Source of the DNA: Hasllibacter sp. | GTDB lineage: Bacteria; Pseudomonadota; Alphaproteobacteria; Rhodobacterales; Rhodobacteraceae | Assembly (NCBI GenBank): GCA_028281405.1 | Contig: JANQKA010000297.1 | Location: 1 to 33,372 of the forward strand | DNA: 33,372 bases | Reading direction: 5' to 3' | In this document: positions 5,354 to 31,647 of the stretch, piece after piece | Layout: every line of letters starts with the position of its first letter | How positions within the stretch are numbered: the first letter of the stretch is position 1 | Notes under the pieces: generated by a model | What the model was told of the DNA's origin: nothing | Database searches by the model: none | What the model saw: only the letters and a program-made list of their open reading frames with translations | Translations under genes and position numbers: made by a program

Positions 5354-6520
5354 TCACAGGGCGGATTCGAGCGCGCCCGCGAGGTCCGCGCGTTCCCACG
5401 AAAACCCGCCGTCCGCGTCCGGCGAACGGCCGAAATGGCCATAGGCGGCGGTGCGCCGGTAGATCGGGCGGTTCAAACCAAGATGCTCGCGGATGCCTCG
5501 CGGCGAGAGATCCATCACCTTGCCGATCGCCTTCTCGATGGCCGCGCCGTCGACACGGCCCGTGCCGTGGGTGTCGCAGTAGACGGACAGCGGCTTGGAC
5601 ACGCCGATGGCGTAGGACAATTGGATGGTGCAGCGCCGCGCCAGGCCCGCCGAAACGACGTTCTTCGCGAGGTAGCGCGCCGCGTAGGCGGCGGACCGGT
5701 CCACCTTGGTCGGATCCTTGCCGGAGAAGGCGCCGCCGCCGTGGGGCGCCGCGCCGCCGTAGGTGTCCACGATGATTTTCCGGCCCGTCAGTCCCGCGTC
5801 GCCGTCCGGCCCGCCGATCACGAATTTGCCCGTGGGATTCACCCACCACTCGGTGTTTCCGGTCAGCCACCCGTCGGGCAATTCGCCGCGGATGTGTGGT
5901 TCCACGATGCCGCGCACGTCGCCGGAGGTCAGGGATTCGTCGAGATGCTGGGTGGACAGGACCACGGAGGTCACCTCGACGGGCTTGCCGTCGGCGTAGC
6001 GCACCGTCAGCTGCGACTTGGCGTCGGGACCGAGCTCCGGCCGCTCGCCCGATTTGCGGACCTCGGCGAGTTTCATGAGGATTCGGTGCGCGTAGTGGAT
6101 CGGCGCGGGCATCAGGTCCGCGGTCTCGTCGACGGCGTATCCGAACATGATGCCCTGGTCGCCCGCGCCCTCGTCCTTGGAACCGGAGGCGTCGACGCCG
6201 CCGGCGATGTCCCCGGACTGGTCGTGCAGGTAGTTGTGAACGTCCATCTTCTCCCAGTGGAAGCCGTCCTGCTCGTAGCCGATATCCCTCACGCACCCCC
6301 GGGCTATCTCCTCGACGCGCCGGGTCACGTCGCCGGGACCGCGCACCTCGCCGCCGATGACGACGCGGTTCGTCGTCGCGAACACCTCGCAGGCCACCCG
6401 GGCCTCCGGCTCCTCCGCCAGAAAGGCGTCCAGAACCGAGTCGGAAATCTGATCGCAGATCTTGTCCGGGTGTCCCTCGGACACGGATTCCGAGGTGAAG
6501 ATGTAGTCCTTGCGGGTCAT
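5354..6520 (-). CDS. metK: S-adenosylmethionine synthetase
   Basis: MetK makes S-adenosylmethionine from methionine and ATP. The 388-residue protein begins [20 protein letters not shown] and contains the two family signatures, [13 protein letters not shown] and [19 protein letters not shown]. An in-frame ATG five codons upstream (6535) exists. ATG at 6520 is preferred because GGAG sits 9 nt before it, and that GGAG is exactly the segment sequestered by the predicted SAM/SAH riboswitch immediately upstream. The gene lies between lnt and trmB, 90 nt downstream of the lnt stop. Expression is probably repressed when SAM is abundant. Confidence 0.96.
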
Positions 6521-6528
6521 TTGGATGC

Positions 6529-6570
6529 GCTCCATTCGGTGCCGCCGTCACGCCAGGAAGCCGTTGTGAC
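6529..6570 (-). promoter_or_regulatory. SAM/SAH riboswitch overlapping the metK ribosome-binding site
   Basis: On the minus strand GTCAC (6570-6566) can pair with GTGAC (6551-6547) to form a 5-bp stem. The loop AACGGCTTCCTGGC carries TTCC, which can pair with the metK Shine-Dalgarno GGAG (6533-6530) to make an H-type pseudoknot. From memory, the core GTCACAACGGCTTCC followed by TGGCGTGAC and a downstream GGAGC matches the SAM/SAH riboswitch family (Rfam RF01727) described upstream of metK in Rhodobacterales. Ligand binding would hide the ribosome-binding site and lower MetK synthesis. The sequence match is very strong. Function is inferred from the family. Confidence 0.9.
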
Positions 6571-6610
6571 AGCCGATCGCGGGGGGCGGTAAACCCGCCG
6601 CGCCACGGGG

Positions 6611-11283: not shown

Positions 11284-11510
11284 TCCACGCCGCGGGCCGA
11301 CGTGGCGGGAAATGGATTCCGTGGCCGAAACGCCGCCCCGGCGGAGGTTCCAATCCGCCCGCGGATTGGTGGATGAAGAATGGGATTCGTGGCGGATCGC
11401 GCCCCTCCAACCGTGCGGCGGCACATCCGGCTGAATTGAGTGTTGGAATCGGCACAATTTTATTTCAATTATTTTGGTTGCATAATTACGATTCGAAAGG
11501 CCGACGCGAC

Positions 11511-12595
11511 TCAATCCAGTTGCCAATTCTCCACATTCCAGTCGGGCCGTCCGTTGAACGAAAATCGCGCGGTTACGGCTCCGACACTATTTGGGTGCAT
11601 CCTGCCATGCATCCGATTTCCCCGCATATATTTTTCAATTTTTCGCTCGTGCTCAGATCGAACCAGGGATAATGGAAGCGACGTGAGAAATAAATTTTCC
11701 GTAAGGGAATCCAACCTTTCCAAGTCAGATTTTGTTGGGAGTTGGTTATTGCCACGTGACCATGGAGTTACGATGGCGTTGACATTTCGGCGCAATACAC
11801 GAGTCCATAATCCATCATGATGCGCATTTCGCGATCCATGATGCGGAACTTTGAAGTAGCTTACTTCTCCACAAGGACGATTGGGAGAATCCATGATGGA
11901 ATCCCAGCCCGAACGAGGGTCCGAGGTTCGCTCCAAATCCGATCCCAAAATCATATGAATTTCTCCAATTCTGATCCACATCGCAACCGAATGATGATTT
12001 GGACTCTGTGGGACAACGCCACGATCCTTAACTTCCTGATCAATAATAAGTGAGGCCAACCGGGATTCGCTTTCCATTATTTGGAAATCCGAAGGTGAAA
12101 GCGCCCAAATATCGCATGAATAGTGGTGAGCCAATTGGTCGGTGGTGAATTTAAGAATACGTTTGTCCTGACATCCGTAGCGAATTCTGCGCGTACCCGA
12201 TTTAAGTCTCCTGAATACTTCCAATATTCGTCAACGCCGGATCGCAGCCGTTCTAATTCGGTGAATGATCGCACGGTAAGGAACTTGAGGAATTCGCGTT
12301 TTGTGAACGCCCCCGAGACACATACAGCCGCATTTTCACATGTATCGATCAATTGGGACATTCCGCGAATATGATCATCGTGCCAATGCGTTACGACAAC
12401 CAAATCCGCATGACGCGAAATATCAACGCCAATTCTCTCGAAATATCGAAGGGCAACAGGCGAATCATTTGTTCTTGATACGCAAGAATCCACGATAACC
12501 CAATGCTGGCTTCCCAAGTGAACGACAATGCATTCGCCGTAACCCGGACCGAAAACAGACACTTCCAATTCGTGATCGTCAGGCTTCGTCTTCAT
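11511..12595 (-). pseudogene. MBL-fold hydrolase with apparent frameshift (protein C of the cassette)
   Basis: Two overlapping frames together encode one metallo-beta-lactamase-fold hydrolase of about 361 residues. The first frame, from ATG 12595, has FGPGYGECIVVHLG, a metal-binding motif THWHDDHIRG near residue 75, and runs to a stop at 12077. The second is open from 12230 down to 11511 and contributes ALSPSD, MILGSDLE and KVPHHGSRNAHHDGLW, the C-terminal metal-ligand half. Restoring one A at about 12227 (GAA TAT to GAA ATA) joins them as ...GVDEILEVFRRLKSG.... No slippery heptamer is seen there, so programmed frameshifting is unlikely. This is a real mutation or a sequencing error. The gene overlaps the upstream gene by 17 nt. 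Substrate unknown. Confidence 0.78.
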
Positions 12596-13280
12596 CGTCC
12601 CACTCAATGTCGTCGATTATTTTTTTGAGGTAAGCCAATCTCTCTTCGACTTCGGCGGGATCTAGAGGAGTGGGCTCTTTGAAAATCACATGAGAATAGT
12701 ACTCCTTTTTCCCATAATTAGTCCTTTCGCCCATCACAAGGCGGAATATTGCTCCTGGCACAATAAGTTCCCGATCCGATTCCGGGACGCGATCAATGGG
12801 AATAGTGATAAATTCCTCAAAGTTTGCGTCACTTCCTTTAATCAATACGATTCTACACTCGAATTCGTCGCCTGAAATCTCCTCGACCATACCTTCCCAC
12901 TCGGCGGTCTCATCTTCCGATGTGCGTTCATCCGGAAATGGAACGGTGGGATAAGTTGTGGTGGAATGGGTGAAACCAATTGGATAATATGCATTGAGGT
13001 TTCCCCAAGGCCAATTTTCTTCGATTATCCCGTACAAGACGGGAATTGGGGTGCGGTGACAATGGGTGGCCTCCAAGAATTTTTGCTCCGGATTTGCCTT
13101 GACCCAATCTTCAATATGGAATCCGAATGGATTGAGGTTCCGAGTTGATTCCAAATCGTGAACATCCCGAGCCTCACCGATCATTTGGTTTTCATTGGGG
13201 AGAACGGAAGCCGTCAAGGATGGCGGGAAGATGCTCGTTCCTCCCGGAGTTCTTCCGTATTCAAGATGTTGAGTGAACAT
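12579..13280 (-). CDS. Unknown protein B of AT-rich cassette
   Basis: This is a 233-residue acidic, probably cytoplasmic protein I do not recognise. There is no signal peptide or membrane helix. The N-terminal half is polar and aromatic-rich (EATHCHRTPIPVLYG, ENWPWGNLNAYYP). The C-terminal part from about residue 125 looks like a small beta-rich domain, with EWEGMVEEISGDEFECRIV and ELIVPGAIFRLVMGE, followed by a charged helix and an acidic tail (DIEWDDEDEA). It starts 2 nt after the stop of gene A (TGAAAATG) and its 3' end overlaps the start of the MBL-fold gene, so the three are almost certainly co-translated. Codon use is visibly AT-richer than in flanking genes, which suggests transfer. 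Confidence 0.8.
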   Translation of the reverse strand: MFTQHLEYGRTPGGTSIFPPSLTASVLPNENQMIGEARDVHDLESTRNLNPFGFHIEDWVKANPEQKFLEATHCHRTPIPVLYGIIEENWPWGNLNAYYPIGFTHSTTTYPTVPFPDERTSEDETAEWEGMVEEISGDEFECRIVLIKGSDANFEEFITIPIDRVPESDRELIVPGAIFRLVMGERTNYGKKEYYSHVIFKEPTPLDPAEVEERLAYLKKIIDDIEWDDEDEA

Positions 13281-13282
13281 TT

Positions 13283-13996
13283 TCAGACCGCCATTGCTCT
13301 AAAGTAGTCGATGATTTTATCTGCGCTCTGTAGAGCAGAGGAGTATTCGTTGCGTATGCCAAATATTGCGCGCCTTGCTCCAATTGTACTTTGTTCTCCC
13401 TGCAACCAAAAGTACCGATTCACGAGTATGAATACCGCGGTGCTTGGATTCAAATATTCCGAGTGCCCCACCCCTATTTCGGCGTACGTGGAATTATACA
13501 CTCCGGAAGAGAGATTGTTTGAAAAGAATTTTCGCGTCCAAACGGATGCGGTTTCCACGGGCAGATCTTGATAGTGAACATTGCTTCCTTGATATCCACC
13601 GCTCAAATCGTCCCACAGGTCGGTTGGCGCGATGCGCCGCATCATTTCGGTTTTCTTTCCCGGAGAGGTTGTCCGGAAGTTGGCAGATTTTCCAATAAAG
13701 AACCCATGAATGTTCGAATGGGGAAGGATTTCCGAAAATATCTTCGAGACAAAGTCGAGAATCAATTCCGCCGGTGCCGCCAGAGTGGAAACTTGGAATT
13801 GGTCGGGCGAAACTTGGACGTTCATTCCTCCCAAGGTCATGTTCACCGCCCCTGGGGAGGCCGGTCCATACGTCGGAGCGGCGGCGGCTTCTTTGGAGAT
13901 CACCGAATGGTGCTCAAGCCACGAAGGTTGAAAAATCATGGGTTGGAAGCCGCCGAACAGGGTGATCGACCAGTACGTATGATCCACGCCAACCAT
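13283..13996 (-). CDS. Unknown protein A of AT-rich cassette
   Basis: This is a 237-residue cytoplasmic protein I do not recognise. It opens MVGVDHTYWSITLFGGF, followed by FQPSWLEHHSVISKEAA. It has a central MNVQVSPDQFQVSTL beta segment and ends in a helical RNEYSSALQSADKIIDYF. No catalytic motif, signal peptide or membrane helix is evident. ATG at 13996 is chosen because AGGGG lies about 6 nt upstream; a GTG at 14044 would add 16 GC-rich, unpersuasive residues. It is the first gene of a tight operon with B and the MBL-fold hydrolase C. By analogy with other compact three-gene cassettes it may be a sensor or partner of C, but that is inference only. Confidence 0.78.
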   Translation of the reverse strand: MVGVDHTYWSITLFGGFQPMIFQPSWLEHHSVISKEAAAAPTYGPASPGAVNMTLGGMNVQVSPDQFQVSTLAAPAELILDFVSKIFSEILPHSNIHGFFIGKSANFRTTSPGKKTEMMRRIAPTDLWDDLSGGYQGSNVHYQDLPVETASVWTRKFFSNNLSSGVYNSTYAEIGVGHSEYLNPSTAVFILVNRYFWLQGEQSTIGARRAIFGIRNEYSSALQSADKIIDYFRAMAV

Positions 13997-14647
13997 TTCA
14001 GACCCCTGTCCCGGCTCGGTCTGGATGCGCGGCTTCACGCACACCGTGTGGTGGAGCGGAGGTCTGGCAAATGAGCAAAACCGACATCGAAGCGGACGGG
14101 TTGGAGGCGGTGTGTCGCGTGCATTCGACAGGAGTATTCCTCTCTGGACGCGCGTGCTTCGGCGCGGCCCCGGGGATCAAGTAGCCGCGTCCGTCCAAAT
14201 ATTCGTCCAAAAAGCGGTTCCCTCCGATTGGAGGCATTGGATGCCGATGAGATTCCGGAGCGGAGTCGTTGACCGACGCATCATGGTCCTTTGACCCCGC
14301 GTGCCGGAATCCGCCGAACCGATGCGGTTCCGACCGCGGATGAGCCATCGCGGAGCGCGCCGCGGTCAGGCGGCGGAATCCGAACCGTCCGCCGCCCACG
14401 CCGAAGTGAAGGCCGACCAAGGCCATGCGGGCATACTGTGGCAACATCGCTTCCTCATTCACGGTATGAGCCGCTCCCGCCGCCGATACCGGGAGGAACG
14501 CCTCTTGGAGCCCATATATCTCTCAAGCCGACAGGGAACAATAGCTGTTCGACCGATTTCTTCATGTTCCGCGCCCATATCAGAGCGGATCGGGGGCCCA
14601 CCGGGCGAGAACCCCGGCTTCGGCTGGAGAGGCGGGTTGGAAGGCGG
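13997..14647. other. Gene-free spacer between cassette and hydroxyquinol cluster
   Basis: No convincing gene lies in these 650 bases. Base composition returns from AT-rich to GC-rich here, so one boundary of the cassette falls at about 14000-14050. A 36-codon minus-strand frame near 14450-14565 (MKKSVEQLLFPVGLRDIW...) has little ribosome-binding signal and is not called. I found no matching direct repeats at the two cassette edges. Confidence 0.5.
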
Positions 14648-23558: not shown

Positions 23559-24998
23559 ATGTCGGTGCTCGCCGCGCTCGTGTTCGTGGGGCTGCTGATT
23601 CTCGCGGTGCCGATCGCCCACGCGCTCCTGATCGCGGGCGCGGCCGCCATGGCTTCGGAGGATCCGATCTTCCTGTTCGAGGCGATCCTCAATCTATACA
23701 AGCCGACGTCCCAATTCCCGATGCTGGCGATCCCTTTCTTCATCTTGGCCGGGGATCTGATGATGTCGGGCCGGTTCGGCGCGTATCTGGTGGTGTTCTC
23801 CAAAATGCTCGTCGGTTGGATGAAGGGCGGGTTGGCGCAGGTCAGCGTCGTCGGATCGCTGTTCTTCGGCGGGGTATCCGGCTCCGCCGTGGCCGACGCG
23901 TCGGCCCTCGGCAACGCGCTGATCCCGGTGCAGAAGAAGCAGGGGTATCCGGAGGGTTTCTCCTCGGCGGTCAACTCGGCTTCCTCCACCATCTCGGTGC
24001 TGATTCCGCCATCGATTCCGCTGATCCTCTACGGGCTCGTCACGGGAACCTCGATCCCCAAACTGTTTCTGGCGGGGATCGTCCCGGGCGTCATGTTGAC
24101 CGTGATGATGTTCGTCGTCTGCTACGCGGTCGGCAGGATCCGCGATTTGCCCGCGTCTCCCGCGGAGGGAGCGAACCGAATCCGGGCGGCGGATTTTTTC
24201 GACCGACGCGACGCGGTGATGATCGCCGCCGCCACCGGGGGGCTGGCCGCGCTCTGGCTCATGGGCCTGGCGCCGGGCTGGGCGGCCCTGGGGCTCGGCG
24301 TCGCCATCGCCGCGGCTCACACGGGTTTCATCTCGAGGCGCTTCAGCTACCGCAGGGTGCCCGCCGACCTGTACAGGGCGGTTCCCGCGCTCGTCATGCC
24401 GGTTCTGGTGATCGCCCTGGCGCGCGGCGGGGTGGTGACGCCCACGGAAATCAGCGTGTTCGCGGTGGTCTACGCGCTGCTGGTCGGAACGCTGGTCTAC
24501 CGCGACCTCGCGTTCGCCACGTTCCTGCGCTGCGTTTTGACCAGCGGCATGATGACCGGGGTCATCATGCTGGTGATCATGGGTTCGAGCGTCCTGCAAT
24601 GGATTCTGTCCTTCGAGAGCGTGCCCGAAAACCTCGCGCTCTGGATGCTGGCGACGCTTCGGGAACCGTGGGTGATCATCCTCGGCATGAACCTGCTCAT
24701 GATAGCGGTCGGCACCTTCCTCGACCTCCCCGCGGCGGTGCTCCTGCTGGCTCCGATATTCATCGGGGTCGCGGCGCGGATCGGGATCGACCCGGTCCAG
24801 CTCGGGGTCATGATGGTGGTCAATCTCGCCATCGGGCTGTACACTCCTCCGGTGGGCACGACCCTGTTCGTCTCCGTGGCGATCGAGCGCGTGCCGATGG
24901 GAAGGGTGGTGGCGCAGCTGCTTCCCTTCTACGCGGTGGCGCTGATCGTGTTGGGGTTGATCAGCTTCGTGCCCGCGCTGTCGTCGCTCTTTCTTTAG
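23559..24998 (+). CDS. TRAP transporter large membrane subunit (DctM family)
   Basis: This 479-residue integral membrane protein of the DctM family forms the sodium-driven transport channel with the small subunit. It has many hydrophobic segments and motifs such as FPMLAIPFFILAGDLM, FFGGVSGSAVADASALG, IPPSIPLILYGLVTGTSI and, near the C-terminus, LAIGLYTPPVGTTLFVS. It is somewhat longer than the usual 430 or so because of a polar insert around residues 190-230 (RIRDLPASPAEGANRIRAAD). GGAGGAGATC precedes ATG 23559. No strong terminator follows; a 7-bp hairpin CCGGACC/GGTCCGG at 25220-25241 has no T-run. Confidence 0.93.
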   Translation: MSVLAALVFVGLLILAVPIAHALLIAGAAAMASEDPIFLFEAILNLYKPTSQFPMLAIPFFILAGDLMMSGRFGAYLVVFSKMLVGWMKGGLAQVSVVGSLFFGGVSGSAVADASALGNALIPVQKKQGYPEGFSSAVNSASSTISVLIPPSIPLILYGLVTGTSIPKLFLAGIVPGVMLTVMMFVVCYAVGRIRDLPASPAEGANRIRAADFFDRRDAVMIAAATGGLAALWLMGLAPGWAALGLGVAIAAAHTGFISRRFSYRRVPADLYRAVPALVMPVLVIALARGGVVTPTEISVFAVVYALLVGTLVYRDLAFATFLRCVLTSGMMTGVIMLVIMGSSVLQWILSFESVPENLALWMLATLREPWVIILGMNLLMIAVGTFLDLPAAVLLLAPIFIGVAARIGIDPVQLGVMMVVNLAIGLYTPPVGTTLFVSVAIERVPMGRVVAQLLPFYAVALIVLGLISFVPALSSLFL

Positions 24999-25837
24999 TG
25001 GGCCTTCCGGCGCCGGCGGCCACGGGTCGCGTGGTATTCGTCGAAGACGCCTTTCGCGCCCCGCACGGCGAATCCCTCCGGGCCGCGATCCCGGATGGGG
25101 CGGTCCGCGGAGAGCGGGAGGCCGCCGCCGGGTTCCCGGCGGGAATTCGCGCGGCGGCGAGCCGGGTGAATCGATCCGCTTCGTTTCCGCGCGATCGGCC
25201 CTCACCGCGCCCGCGCTTCCCGGACCGCGGCTCCGGTCCGGAGGGGTTGCGAATCGGCGGCGGATGTTGCCCGACCTAGACGATACGCGATCGCGGGAAT
25301 CCTCCGGGTCGTGAAATCAGCGTCGGTCGGGCCGCGGGAGCGGGAAGGTGGTGGAGGAGAGGCGCCCCGCATTCGACGCGGCGACCGTCCCGCGCCGTGG
25401 CGTGTCGGCTTCGCTCCGCGACGGGCGTGACCCGGCGGATCGGCTGTACCGGGACCGAGGGCGCTCAGGCACGGAATTCCGCGACGCCGATTGGATATTC
25501 CCCTATTCGCCGAAACGGATCGAGGCCGCCACGGTCGATGCGGCGGTTCCCGCGCGCATTCCAAAAGGCGGGACGCCCCGCCGGGGCCGGAGGCCTGCTT
25601 CCAGCGCCGCGGGACAATGCGACGCGGCGCGTTCCCGGCATCCGTGATTCCGAACCGCCGGTTTCCGCCGCGCGGCGGCGACTCCCCTATCCAGCGGCCA
25701 AATTGATCCACCGCAACATTCCCGTCGAATTTTCCTCCAGTCGCGCCGCGCCCGCGGAGAACCCGGGTGGGCGCGCGCGCCGTCCTCCCGGGTCCGGCAT
25801 TTACGGAAATTCCACCCGCTCCGCGCGACGCGTTCAT
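24999..25837. other. Gene-free spacer after TRAP operon
   Basis: About 840 GC-rich bases contain no supported gene. The stretch 25690-25840 vaguely resembles the tandem repeat to the right (CAAATTGATCC...GTCGAATTTTCC) and may be a decayed additional copy. Confidence 0.45.
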
Positions 25838-25848
25838 TCGCCAAAACG

Positions 25849-25879
25849 CGATTACCCGCTTACGAATCCTCCCCGTCAA
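25849..25879 (-). promoter_or_regulatory. Promoter-like element in repeat copy 1
   Basis: On the minus strand TTGACG (25879-25874) and TAATCG (25854-25849) are separated by 19 bases. It is weaker than the equivalents in copies 2-4 and lies at the same place in the repeat. Confidence 0.35.
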
Positions 25880-26075
25880 GCGTGTATGTTCGGATCGATT
25901 GCGCTTCCCTCCCGCGGCGGGATGGAACGGAATTCACCCGTGGCGAGAAGGTTTCGCGACGGGACGCGCCGCCGCCGGGCGGGAAGCGGCGGGTTCCGCG
26001 CTCAACTTTTCCCCGGCGCCCGTCCTTTCGGGACCGTCCACCGGTTTCCGCCCGAAGCGGTCTCCCGGCGCAAAT

Positions 26076-26105
26076 ATATTATCCGTCATTGAATCCATTG
26101 GTCAA
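26076..26105 (-). promoter_or_regulatory. Promoter-like element in repeat copy 2
   Basis: On the minus strand TTGACC (26105-26100) is followed after 18 bases by TAATAT (26081-26076), a near-consensus sigma70 pair. A transcript would run leftward through the spacer into copy 1. Confidence 0.55.
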
Positions 26106-26299
26106 GTGTTTTCGCATATGCCGAACGCGTTTCCCCTCCCTTGACGGACGCGAGCCGAATTATCCGCGGCGAAAAGGCATCGCGTTTGGAGGCGCCGCCC
26201 TGATCGCGGATGGCCGCGGCCGCCGCGCGCCGTTCCTCCGGCGTCCCTCTTTCCGGGGACTTTCACCCGATTGCGCTGGAATTGGCCCTTCGGGGAATA

Positions 26300-26329
26300 A
26301 GATTAACCGCTTACGAATCACTTTGTCAA
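26300..26329 (-). promoter_or_regulatory. Promoter-like element in repeat copy 3
   Basis: On the minus strand a perfect TTGACA (26329-26324) is followed after 18 bases by TAATCT (26305-26300). Position and spacing match copies 2 and 4. Confidence 0.55.
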
Positions 26330-26526
26330 GCGCTTTGGGTCAAGTCGAACGCGTTTCCTCCCTTGACCGGGGAGGTTGAATTTATCCGTGGCTGGAGGTT
26401 TGGCATCGTGGGATGCGCCTCCTTGGGAAGGATGGTCCGCGGACGCCGCGCGCGCCTTTCCCACGGAGTCGGAGATTGCGGAATCTTTCCGTTTTCTTCC
26501 GGGCGAAGACGCCCTTCGCCAAAATG

Positions 26527-26556
26527 TATTTACTTGCCATTGATCCTTCCGGTCAA
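26527..26556 (-). promoter_or_regulatory. Promoter-like element in repeat copy 4
   Basis: On the minus strand TTGACC (26556-26551) is followed after 18 bases by TAAATA (26532-26527). Just downstream the transcript would contain a small perfect hairpin, GGGCG-TCTT-CGCCC (about 26513-26500). Confidence 0.55.
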
Positions 26557-26640
26557 GAGATTTCATTCAAGTCGAATCGTTTCTCCGTCCTTTACGGGGT
26601 GCGATTCGAAAATATCCGTGGCGAGGAAGTTTCGCGTCGG

Positions 26641-27197
26641 CGTGCGGCATGGTGGACGGCGGAGAGTGGGAGGATGCCGCGCTCCGGTTCCAAAGGAAGT
26701 TCCGGTCCCGCGTACACTGGACCAAACCTTCGACGGATGGCAAATTTCGGGTGTCCGCGCCCATGTTGACCGTTGGACCGACCCGCGTGTTTCGTTCCGC
26801 CTCCGCGTTTCGCGGGCGACGGGGGCCGAGGCGGCGGACCGGCGTCCGTTGACGAAAAGATGAACGGCCGGTGAAAGGGCGCGGCTTGAAATCAATACCC
26901 GTTTTGCTTAATTGGCGGGGACGGGCCACTTGAAATTTCCGGGAGCCGGATGAAGTCGAAGGTCAAGGACATGCACGAATTCGAAGCCGCGGTCCATCGC
27001 GGCCCGGAGCGCGCCGGCGCTCCAATTTCCGTTCGTGGGCGCGGGCCGCCCGGCGCGGGAACCGGCCAGCACTATTGACGAAAAACGTTCGCGCCGCGTC
27101 GCCGCGGCGCGCGACAGCAGCCTGTGTAGAGTAATCGGTGCGGTCGGTGACCTCATTGATATTTCCGAAATTCGGACAAGATCGAGAGGTCAAGAGC
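26641..27197. other. Leader region of the alpha-CTD/sigma-like gene
   Basis: These 557 bases separate the repeat array from the gene at 27198. A 42-codon plus-strand frame at 26950-27078 (MKSKVKDMHEFEAAVHRG...) has GGGAG upstream but ends in low-complexity sequence, and I cannot support it as a gene. TTGACG lies at about 27075 without a matching -10 box. Confidence 0.4.
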
Positions 27198-29051
27198 ATG
27201 TCCAAGTCCAAAACCGCGGCGACCGGCCGCCCCAAAATCGCCGGCGGCGCTCCCGTCCCCGACTGGATCCAGGATCCCGGGGATCCGCTGGGGATCGCCC
27301 GTGGCGCTCCGGCGTGGTTCCGGAATCACGAAGTCGGAAAATTGCCGTTGACGGTGCGGCTGCGGAACGTGTTCACGAACAATCAAATTAACGTGGTTTC
27401 CGACCTCGACCGCTATTCCGACGAGGATTTCTCCGCCCTGAAGAACATCGGGGTGACATCCAGAAGGCATCTCGCCGAGGCCCTTCTCGAAAGCCTTCAG
27501 GCCGGATTGGAGGCCAGGGGAGGGGCCCCGGACCTTGTTTCCGGCGGCGGAGCGAAGGACGGAACACGCGGTGGCCGCAAGGAAACCAACAACCTGTCCG
27601 GGGCGGTCTCGCGCGGATTGATGGGCAATCTTCTTGGCGCGCTCGACAAGGTCGGGGAACGCGAACGCGAAATCGTGTTGAGCCGGATGGGATACGGGGA
27701 GACGTCGAAAACGCTCGGCGGCCTCGGAGTGGAATATGGCGTGACGCGCGAGCGCATCCGTCAAATCGAACAGCGGGTGATCGACCCGATCAGGCTTGGC
27801 GAAGCCTGCGGCGACCTGATGCGGAGCCGGTTGAACACCGTACTGAGGAAACGCGACACGCCGTTGCCCCTGTCGGATCTGGAGCGGGCGGACGACTGGT
27901 TCCGCGGTGTTTCGGAGCATCCCGACATGGCCGAGTATCTGGTCGAAAAATTGTGCCCGAAAGCATTCAATGTGATTTCGGTCGCGGATGTCAAGTACAT
28001 TTCGCGCCTCGATCAGAACATCTGGGACGAAACGGTCAGGGACGGGAGGAATCTGCTGAGGAATTCCGTCGGCCTGATACTTCCCGAGGACGAGTGCCGC
28101 AGGCAGGTGGCGTCTCTCCTGCCGGCGACGGCCCGTGAATTGGAGCCCCTGCTTTGGACCGAGGCTTCGCGGTACTGTCACTTCTCCGGATTGAGGAACC
28201 CGCGTGTTCTCACCTCCTACGGGCGGGGAAGGGAGCATCTGGTCCGGGTGATCCTGGAGGACAGTCCGGAGCCCGTTCACGCCCGCGAGGTGTCCCGCAA
28301 GCTCGCCGAAACATTGGGGAGGGAATTCGGTTTTTCGCGGGTTCAGGCCGCGCTCTCCGCATCCGGAGTGCTGCTCGGCAAGGGAACCTTCGGAACCCGG
28401 GAGCACATCCCCCTTTCGGACGCGGCGTTGAAGAAGGCCGCGGAGATCGCCTCCAAAGCCGTGAACAAGCGTGGCGCGCGCGGGCGCCAGTGGCATGCGC
28501 AGGAGTTGCTGCGGGAAATTCGCGGGAAGGATCCCGGGCTCCACGATAAGTTTGACAAGTATCGGCTGAACGCGGCGCTCCGGTGGCATTCCGACTTGAA
28601 GTATCTCGGACGGTTCATGTGGACGGGTCCGGAGGGGAATGGCTCCCGTGTCCACATCAAGGAGGCGCTGAGAGAGATTTTGCGGGATGCGGGGGAGCCG
28701 CTCGCCACCTCCGAGTTAAAGAGTCGGGTGGCCGAACTCAGGGGCATGGGCAAGACCTTTCAGATCGGCAACCGCGATCCCGTCCTGAGGGTGGGCCGCG
28801 GGATGTGGGGCCTGAACGACCGCGACTTCGCGGTGAAGAGGGACCGGCAACCCGAATTGGTCGAGGCGGTGATCGACGCTCTCCGCCGGAAAGAATCCGG
28901 GATCGCCGTGGAGGAGGCGGACCGGTACATCGATTTCTCGCCGCGGATGAACGGGGACTCGATCTTCAGCATCGCCACCACGGACGACCGTCTGACGACC
29001 GGGATCGGACGCGTGCTCTTCCTGAGGGAGTGGGGAGGCCCCCGAATATAA
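27198..29051 (+). CDS. RNA polymerase alpha-CTD-like / sigma region 4-like multi-domain DNA-binding protein
   Basis: This 617-residue protein combines transcription-machinery domains. Residues about 49-100 (LPLTVRLRNVF...DFSALKNIGVTSRRHLAEAL) match the helix-hairpin-helix C-terminal domain of RNA polymerase alpha. Residues about 148-198 (LDKVGEREREIVLSRMGYG...YGVTRERIRQIEQRV) match sigma70 region 4, the -35-binding helix-turn-helix. The C-terminal half looks like several winged-helix modules (about 344-408, 411-478, 485-545 and 550-613). The third (HIKEALREILRDAGEPLATSELKSRV is its core) resembles HARE-HTH domains. There is no sigma region 2, so it is not a full sigma factor. ATG 27198 has GAGAGGT 7 nt upstream; an ATG at 27138 is less likely. 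It may bind promoters or act as a regulator. It stands alone in its orientation. Confidence 0.82.
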   Translation: MSKSKTAATGRPKIAGGAPVPDWIQDPGDPLGIARGAPAWFRNHEVGKLPLTVRLRNVFTNNQINVVSDLDRYSDEDFSALKNIGVTSRRHLAEALLESLQAGLEARGGAPDLVSGGGAKDGTRGGRKETNNLSGAVSRGLMGNLLGALDKVGEREREIVLSRMGYGETSKTLGGLGVEYGVTRERIRQIEQRVIDPIRLGEACGDLMRSRLNTVLRKRDTPLPLSDLERADDWFRGVSEHPDMAEYLVEKLCPKAFNVISVADVKYISRLDQNIWDETVRDGRNLLRNSVGLILPEDECRRQVASLLPATARELEPLLWTEASRYCHFSGLRNPRVLTSYGRGREHLVRVILEDSPEPVHAREVSRKLAETLGREFGFSRVQAALSASGVLLGKGTFGTREHIPLSDAALKKAAEIASKAVNKRGARGRQWHAQELLREIRGKDPGLHDKFDKYRLNAALRWHSDLKYLGRFMWTGPEGNGSRVHIKEALREILRDAGEPLATSELKSRVAELRGMGKTFQIGNRDPVLRVGRGMWGLNDRDFAVKRDRQPELVEAVIDALRRKESGIAVEEADRYIDFSPRMNGDSIFSIATTDDRLTTGIGRVLFLREWGGPRI

Positions 29052-29416
29052 AGGAGCCGGCGTGGCGTGGACCGGGGCCCATTCAAGGTGGTCGGATTGG
29101 AGTTGGCCCGCTCCGGCGGCCCGCGCTCGCCGCGCGCCGCGTCGACGACGAGGCGCGGCTTTCCGGTTCCATCGATTATGTATTGGGAGGCCTCCGCCGT
29201 CGCGTGAAAAGGTCCCGTCAACGCGACGGGGCGGTCTTTCCCGAACACGCCGGGATTGGATGGCCGATTGATGGCGGCGGTCCTCAACGCTACGGGGGTG
29301 GGCGCGATTTGGGGCCTCCAAGCGGTTCGACGGCCATCGAGTCCGGAAGCCGCGCCAATCACCCCGGGGCCGGATCGAAGCGGCGTCGATGGAAATCCCT
29401 TCGAATCGGGATCCGG
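29052..29416. other. Gene-free spacer
   Basis: These 365 bases after the alpha-CTD/sigma-like gene contain no supported gene, no tRNA-like T-loop and no obvious terminator hairpin with a T-run. Confidence 0.4.
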
Positions 29417-29587
29417 TCAGCCTCCAAGGGGTGGGTTCCGGGCGATGAAGGTGACCGGATCGACCACCTGATCGGGCAGGATCAGGACCGCCGGACCGAG
29501 GATGGCGGGGGGGTCGGAGACCCGCGGGCCGCAACCGGCCACGAGGGCCAAGGTCAGCAAGGCCGCCGGAATTGCCTTCATGCGCAT
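29417..29587 (-). CDS. Small predicted lipoprotein
   Basis: This is a 56-residue protein starting MRMKAIPAALLTLALVAGC. A positively charged N-terminus, a hydrophobic core and the lipobox LVAGC (cysteine at residue 19) indicate a type II signal peptide. The mature part, GPRVSDPPAILGPAVLIL and a short tail ending ARNPPLGG, is proline-rich and only about 38 residues. It would be acylated by Lgt and trimmed by Lsp, then processed by Lnt. The ribosome-binding site is weak (GGGAC 8 nt before ATG 29587; ATG 29581 is an alternative). Tiny lipoproteins of this kind occur in many alphaproteobacteria and their function is unknown. Confidence 0.6.
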   Translation of the reverse strand: MRMKAIPAALLTLALVAGCGPRVSDPPAILGPAVLILPDQVVDPVTFIARNPPLGG

Positions 29588-30048
29588 GGCTTCGTCCCGT
29601 AGGGTGGGGTTCGGACGGGGCTCATACATCCGAATGCCCGGCTTCGTCAAGACGCGTCCCTTCGGATGGAATGGCGATTGTGCGCCGGAGCCGTTCGGGT
29701 AGGATGGTCAAACGATGGTCAACCCAGCCTTCGATGCCACTCTTCCCAAATGCGCGTCGGCATTGGAATCCCACCCGCCGGAAATAGGAATTGGCCGGGG
29801 CCGAAAGCCTTTTCCCCCGGCGTCTCGTCGAATATCGCGAACCGATTGGTGATCCGGATTCGTCCCGCACGGAAATTCGGCCGACACCCCACGGCCCGCG
29901 GGACAGCGCGGGGGCGAATACTCATCCGGTCAATCCGTCTTGAACAATCCCCCCGTTTTGTCCGTTCTCCGTTCGCCCTGTGATTTTCCCGAACGGAGTC
30001 ATGAATCGCGACGGAGGCGGACACCGCCGGTCGGTCGATAGGGAAGGG
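29588..30048. other. Gene-free spacer
   Basis: These 461 bases between the small lipoprotein and the GMC dehydrogenase show no supported gene. Composition is mixed, with no clear repeat or terminator. Confidence 0.4.
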
Positions 30049-31647
30049 CTACCCCCGGTCCTCAAGAATCATGTCGGAAGCCTTCTCGCCGATCATGATC
30101 GCGGGGGCGTTCGTGTTCCCCGACACGATCTCGGGCATGATCGAGCAATCCGCGACCCGCAGGCATCCCAAGCCCCGCACGCGCAGGCGGGCGTCGACGA
30201 CCGAATCGGGGTCGGACCCCATCCGGCAGGTGCCGGTCGGGTGGAAGATCGTGGTCGAGTGGCGGCGCGCCCAGGCCAGGGTTCCCTCGTAATCGTCGAG
30301 GTCGAGCGATCCATCGGGACGGAATTCTTCGGATATCATGCTTTTGAGCGGATCGTGCCGGGCGATCCTCCGGGCGATCTTGACGCCCTCGACCAGGGTT
30401 CGGCGGTCGGTCTCCGTGGACAGATAGTCGGGATGGATCTTCGGGTGGACGGCGGGGTCCGGCGAAGCCAGGCGGATCCGGCCGCGGCTTTCAGGGCGGA
30501 GCTGGCAGACCGACATGGTGAAGGCCGAGAAGGGATGCACCCCTTCGCCGGGGCTGTCGGCGGACCACGGTTGGACATGGAACTGGATGTCCGGGGTCTC
30601 CACATGGTCGCCCGTGCGAAGGAATCCGGTGGCGAGGCTCGCGGCCATCGCCATCGGACCGGACCGTGTAAGCGCGTACCTCAGCGCGATCCGGGCCTGG
30701 TTGAACAGGCTCCGGACCTCGTCGTTCAACGTCGGCTCGTTGCACTTGAACACCAATCTGGCCTGCAGGTGGTCCTGCAGGTTCGCGCCGACGCCGGGCA
30801 GGTCGCTCAGGACCGGAATCCCGTGGTCGCGCAGATGCTCCGCCTCCCCGACGCCGGAGAGCATCAGCAACTGCGGAGATCCGATCGCGCCCGACGAAAT
30901 AATCACCTCGCGCCGGGCGCGGACGGTTCGCTCGCGTCCCGAACGGTCGCGGTAGGCGACGCCCGTGGCGCGTTTGCCGGAGAAGATGATCCTCCCGGCG
31001 GCGGCTCCCGTGACGATTGACAGGTTCGATCGCCCGCGCGCCGGGTCGAGGAACGCCACCGCGCTCGAGCAGCGGCGCCCCTTGCGCGCGGTCAGTTGGA
31101 AGAAGCCGACCCCTTCCTGCCGCTCTCCGTTGTAGTCGGGGTTGAAGGGGTGCCCGGCCCGCACCGCGGCTTCGACCCAGGCGTCGCAGATCGGGCGCGA
31201 CAGCCGCATGTCCGAGACCCAAAGCGGCCCCTCGTCACCGTGGAACTCGTCGGCGCCGCGTTCCTGGCGTTCGGATCGCTTGAACAGGGGTAGGACGTCG
31301 TCCCAGCCCCAGCCGGGATTGCCCATTTGCCGCCAGCGCTCGTAGTCCCGCGGCTGGCCGCGCACGTATAGCAGGCCGTTGAGCGACGAGGATCCGCCCA
31401 GCACCTTGCCGCGCGGCCAGTCGAGTTGCCGGCCGTCGAGCCCGGGATCGGGCTCGGTTCGGTAGCACCAGTCGACGGACGGATCGCCCATCGTCCTGAA
31501 GTAGCCGACCGGGATGTGGATCCATGGATTCCGATCCGGCCCCCCGGCCTCGAGCAGGACGACTCCAATGTCAGGGCGCGCGCTCAGCCGATTCGCGAGG
31601 ACGCACCCCGCCGAGCCGGCTCCGACGATCACATAATCTGCTTCCAC
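30049..31647 (-). CDS. GMC-family FAD-dependent oxidoreductase (choline dehydrogenase-like)
   Basis: This 532-residue flavoprotein oxidises an alcohol to an aldehyde. The N-terminal FAD-binding Rossmann motif is GAGSAGCVLANRLS (residues 9-22), followed by VVLLEAGG, GMC signature 1 (WPRGKVLGGSSSLNGLLYVRG spans it) and signature 2 (GAIGSPQLLMLSGVG). C-terminal catalytic residues are in TTIFHPTGTCRMG (active-site His) and VSGNTNAPAIMIGEKAS (Asn). The start is placed at a GTG (31647) giving VEADYVIVGAG, the normal family N-terminus. An ATG at 31743 would add 32 residues without homology or a ribosome-binding site. The true substrate is uncertain and no betB or betI is present. It diverges from a TRAP-type binding protein that may import its substrate. 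Confidence 0.88.
   Translation of the reverse strand: MEADYVIVGAGSAGCVLANRLSARPDIGVVLLEAGGPDRNPWIHIPVGYFRTMGDPSVDWCYRTEPDPGLDGRQLDWPRGKVLGGSSSLNGLLYVRGQPRDYERWRQMGNPGWGWDDVLPLFKRSERQERGADEFHGDEGPLWVSDMRLSRPICDAWVEAAVRAGHPFNPDYNGERQEGVGFFQLTARKGRRCSSAVAFLDPARGRSNLSIVTGAAAGRIIFSGKRATGVAYRDRSGRERTVRARREVIISSGAIGSPQLLMLSGVGEAEHLRDHGIPVLSDLPGVGANLQDHLQARLVFKCNEPTLNDEVRSLFNQARIALRYALTRSGPMAMAASLATGFLRTGDHVETPDIQFHVQPWSADSPGEGVHPFSAFTMSVCQLRPESRGRIRLASPDPAVHPKIHPDYLSTETDRRTLVEGVKIARRIARHDPLKSMISEEFRPDGSLDLDDYEGTLAWARRHSTTIFHPTGTCRMGSDPDSVVDARLRVRGLGCLRVADCSIMPEIVSGNTNAPAIMIGEKASDMILEDRG

Follow-up and report, generated by a model that had tools for sequence, protein, structure and literature searches.

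Why should a non-coding tandem array in a bacterial genome carry a promoter-like site in every full unit? The question is raised by a locus in contig JANQKA010000297.1 of Hasllibacter sp., analysed over 33,372 nucleotides (the window), for which an earlier note, made from the letters alone, described four degenerate 225-bp tandem units, each with a sigma70-like promoter, and proposed a family of tandem small RNAs (sRNAs), or a regulatory or satellite array. The array is real and confined to a single locus. It probably goes back to an old local tandem duplication, since decaying, in which a promoter chanced to lie within the ~226 bp of intergenic DNA that were copied.

Extent and content of the array

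The array occupies ~25,680–26,697, within a 2.2-kb stretch without coding signal, and consists of four full units of ~226 bp and a partial fifth, arranged head to tail and in register. Self-BLAST of 24,901–27,200 aligns 25,965–26,697 with 25,742–26,467 at 63% identity over 757 columns (E 8e-53), with matches at double and triple the lag also present, and nhmmer with a profile of the unit finds full units at exactly four places, all on the minus strand (E 8e-49 to 2e-58), and a weak fifth part, the profile having been made from the same four units that it then recovered. Both the tandem arrangement and the number of degenerate units proposed earlier are confirmed by these two methods, and the self-alignment suggested as a check gives the unit length and the additional partial copy; the limits first given, 25838–26640, cut into unit 1 at the start and into the fifth part at the end. 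On the minus strand, the units lie at 25680..25903 (unit 1, nhmmer E 8.5e-49, also seen by self-BLAST), 25906..26130 (unit 2, E 2.6e-56), 26133..26354 (unit 3, E 2.3e-58), and 26355..26578 (unit 4, E 6.3e-56), followed by the partial unit at 26579..26697, which lacks the promoter boxes and is defined by a self-BLAST match ending at 26,697, with a weak nhmmer score (E 0.2). Successive TTGAC boxes are 227, 224, and 226 bp apart. Pairwise identity between units is 53–65%, so that they differ at 35–47% of positions, a divergence too great for TRF to report the array.

The absence of a conserved open reading frame (ORF), also put forward earlier, is upheld, with no ORF common to the units when stops are examined on both strands. 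All ORFs in 25,202–27,156 show flat codon-position GC and negative codon scores, whereas the neighbouring genes, except for an over-long dctQ ORF, score positive, and the ORFs of the array region have no significant Pfam match. A protein repeat was rejected on these four grounds, stops, codon-position GC, codon score, and Pfam, for the ORFs of both strands.

A search for further copies, likewise proposed as a check, finds no second copy elsewhere in the genome. BLAST against 197 other genera of the family returns no relative of the array, only short GC-rich matches, although distant RNA homologues could escape BLAST, and the collection searched contains no further genome of this genus. Plasmids, phages, and viral contigs contain no match, and the array was rejected as a mobile or dispersed element on the lack of a second genomic copy and of plasmid, phage, or viral matches. 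For P0001, no relatives were confirmed in viral contigs or, by single sequence, in genome contigs.

Promoter-like boxes and what they might drive

On the minus strand, CTTGAC is invariant in all four full units, with a TAA(T) box downstream of it in each. By sequence match, the sites read TTGACG-17-GGTAAT in unit 1 (25851..25879, 9/12), TTGACC-16-GATAAT in unit 2 (26078..26105, 10/12), and TTGACA-16-GTTAAT in unit 3 (26302..26329, 10/12), while the site of unit 4 (26527..26556) joins TTGACC to a degenerate −10 box (TAAATA at 18 bp) and is weak. The proposal of a sigma70-like promoter in every unit therefore holds for the TTGAC box (4/4) and for three units at 9–10/12, and falters at unit 4, which reaches only 8/12. 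The spacers of 18 bp (19 in copy 1) given earlier place the −10 box two bases late; spacers of 16, 16, and 17 bp fit better for three units. A TTGAC box with an imperfect −10 box is a pattern shared with alphaproteobacterial sigma70 promoters, and since promoters of this class without T at −7 have been described in Alphaproteobacteria (PMC8407463), the imperfect −10 boxes are no obstacle. In contrast to those promoters, which normally precede genes, there is here one site per repeat unit and no gene behind it.

Among 392 stretches of 285 bp drawn at random from the window, not one has a 10/12 site; this comparison counts only once, because the four sites descend from one ancestor and are not independent. 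It is fairer to ask whether conservation peaks where the sequence looks most like a promoter, and for this a template of 5 + 4 bases, spaced as the boxes are, was used. The promoter boxes keep 35/36 consensus cells and rank first of 210 placements, a result that is the same in six different alignments, whereas the 20 columns between them average ~2.6 of 4, under the unit mean of 2.88. Less favourably, when 15 to 25 columns of spacing are allowed, 4/2,310 placements reach 35. The earlier suggestion of conserved promoters is thus supported, with unit 4 as the weak member, and because the boxes form the best-conserved placement while the spacer drifts, it is credible that they are promoters.

The same test bears on whether the boxes were simply inherited by descent in a neutral satellite, unselected and not firing, which we regard as improbable. 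The longest invariant run, CTTGAC, is unexceptional by itself (P 0.09), two further 5-base runs are just as invariant, and when the entire promoter block is scored it comes only 66th of 210, all of which accord with neutrality, as does the lack of promoters in nearly all other arrays of the genome (below). It is the two boxes taken together, first of 210 around a poorly conserved spacer, that speak against it.

If the sites are promoters, they might instead serve four tandem sRNA genes, with leftward transcription of each from a sigma70 promoter of its own, that function like the clustered sRNAs known in Rhodobacter. Such genes would explain a promoter-like site at the same place in each unit, with boxes that are the best-conserved two-box placement, and a putative promoter does precede every unit, strong in three of the four (9–10 of 12) and weak in the other (8 of 12). 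Folded singly, the promoter-proximal transcript of unit 4 also beats its shuffles (z −2.2); those of units 1–3 do not. However, RNAalifold on the unit alignment, the structure check that had been suggested, reveals no fold conserved among the units, with z −0.6 and +0.2 for the two strands, whether over the whole alignment or in 100-column steps, no terminator-like site lies on the minus (promoter) strand within the units in a test that covers intrinsic terminators, and the array has no match in Rfam. A family of tandem sRNAs would be expected to show a conserved RNA structure, an intrinsic terminator in each unit, and homologues in related species, none of which was detected here, and the differences at over a third of positions between units count further against it. 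An RNA gene was therefore rejected, as the alignment folds of both strands and the single-unit folds give no signal beyond unit 4, and we consider the four-gene explanation unlikely. The closest known likeness is the CcsR1–4 cluster of Rhodobacter sphaeroides, which also comprises four homologous non-coding units in the same bacterial family; unlike that cluster, the present array has a promoter-like site per unit and no sign of a conserved RNA structure or of relatives.

A genome with many non-coding tandem arrays

The assembly comprises 4.9 Mb in 872 contigs and belongs to the Rhodobacteraceae, with a DctP protein 81–93% identical to named Rhodobacteraceae/Roseobacteraceae proteins, the best match being from Marivita geojedonensis, and with a SAM/SAH riboswitch ahead of metK (below). 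In 238 kb of its own contigs, picked by number, there are 11 tandem arrays without coding signal. Sampling of 20 other genera of the family (400 kb) gave none and of 80 named Rhodobacteraceae loci (711 kb) one, so that the rate is ~50 times that of the relatives (1 in 1.1 Mb). The non-coding share is estimated at 29%, against 13–14% in relatives. The arrays have lags of 86–550 bp and identities of 59–90% (for example L138:1777-3443, L142:1346-3403, L173:2747-3499, and L167:15703-16297), and their units differ from array to array, the sequences being unrelated apart from two weak matches. Of the 18 other arrays compared, 17 have on neither strand a promoter site of 9/12. Contigs end in arrays in several cases (L084, L089, and L091 among them), and the assembly therefore probably breaks at arrays.

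The array under study, with its in-register, non-coding copies and similar arrays elsewhere in the genome, is thus a degenerate intergenic tandem (satellite-like) array, and the suggestion of a satellite array is borne out to the extent that it is one of many unrelated ones. Long non-coding regions and a raised repeat content are also found in bacteria whose coding density is lowered and whose intergenic DNA is expanded and repeat-rich. A review of them covers pseudogenes, insertion sequences, and long intergenic regions without mention of tandem arrays (PMC3899985); the difference here is that the arrays are local and tandem, with a different unit at each place. A separate tandem repeat, with a lag of 127, is found at the very end of the contig (33049-33372).

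We therefore favour, as the probable origin of the array, local duplication of intergenic DNA followed by decay. The process behind the many unrelated arrays of the genome would also have made this one, by slippage or unequal recombination, and the ancestral unit would have had a sigma70-type promoter pointing left, on the minus strand, which every copy inherited. Some of these promoters may still fire, giving untranslated RNA toward the 3' end of dctM, and such transcription would place at most weak selection on the boxes.

Several points weigh against this account. That the boxes are better conserved than the rest of the unit points to some selection, unexpected for a purely passive array, and the test that shows this conservation rests on only four related units. 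Additionally, the split into coding and non-coding DNA follows a codon-position GC rule rather than annotation, the named control loci all lie around dctP, and contigs under 3 kb were read as N, which, with arrays at several contig ends, means that the array count is probably low.

In a stronger form of the argument for selection, the four promoters would be selected and would produce non-coding transcripts in tandem, next to the gene for a stand-alone regulator that combines the C-terminal domain of the RNA polymerase alpha subunit (alphaCTD) with sigma region 4; duplication would thus have turned intergenic DNA into a promoter array, in a genome where arrays of this sort arise at a high rate. 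Whilst the array may function as a regulatory array, we give this fuller scenario little credence, and regard the array as a probable by-product. More notable is the genome: in the samples compared, its non-coding arrays are about fifty times as frequent as those of its relatives, so it would suit the study of intergenic duplication and decay in bacteria, and of whether duplicated promoters are retained.

The neighbouring gene, a second array, and other features of the window

The dctM gene ends at 24,998 and is followed by ~2.2 kb without coding signal, up to the gene that encodes an alphaCTD followed by sigma70 region 4 (27198..29051, plus strand, with the ORF open from 27,138; Pfam PF03118 and PF04545). 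Full-length homologues of its product occur in only two of 197 other genera of the family searched; both are longer (824–847 aa), and both are encoded next to PbeA and PbeC defence genes. One homologue is located on an Aurantiacibacter plasmid. With the two longer homologues as queries, tblastn against 24,800–30,200 yielded no convincing match upstream of 27,282, and the array was rejected as a decayed N-terminus of the downstream gene.

Adjacent to the first array lies a second, of two copies on the plus strand. Copy P (26802..27019) is a 63% identical duplicate at a lag of 223 (self-BLAST E 2e-8, shuffle z 17) of copy Q (27028..27249), which holds the likely start codon of the gene at 27,198. 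The DNA ahead of the gene is thus duplicated together with its likely start codon, and copy P holds a relic of this start region. Its period is nearly equal to that of the first array; nevertheless, the copies were rejected as further units of the first array, as profile and pairwise tests fail to establish homology between the two arrays, the one pair with z 4.5 being surpassed by a negative control that reached 6.4. On the minus strand, TTGACC is present in both copies of the second array, beside the gene start.

Region 4 of sigma70 reads the −35 box, and a product with alphaCTD and region 4 could conceivably recognise the −35-like TTGAC without a full sigma factor, in which case the units would be a cluster of binding sites for it, as an autoregulatory or decoy array. 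The presence of both domains in the neighbouring gene and the minus-strand TTGACC motifs next to its start are consistent with such a role. However, the −10 box is conserved too, which binding of this kind does not need, and neither an array nor similar DNA is found upstream of the two homologues in the family, with their defence-gene neighbours, leaving a functional link between gene and array unsupported. A binding-site cluster would be a very improbable explanation, compared with the duplication of intergenic DNA preferred here.

Elsewhere in the window, a tandem repeat at 103-1148 (lags 261 and 513) is contained within a long ORF without a Pfam match and probably consists of coding repeats. 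A low-GC stretch extends over ~11500-14000 (~47% vs 65%). Each of two minus-strand ORFs, 11511-12224 and 12077-12607, matches a different part of a single PHROG of unknown function, and together they are perhaps a broken gene, the second of them also matching the metallo-beta-lactamase superfamily. The metK gene (5,354-6,535, minus strand) is preceded by a SAM/SAH riboswitch at 6528-6575 on the same strand (Rfam RF01727, 51.1 bits).
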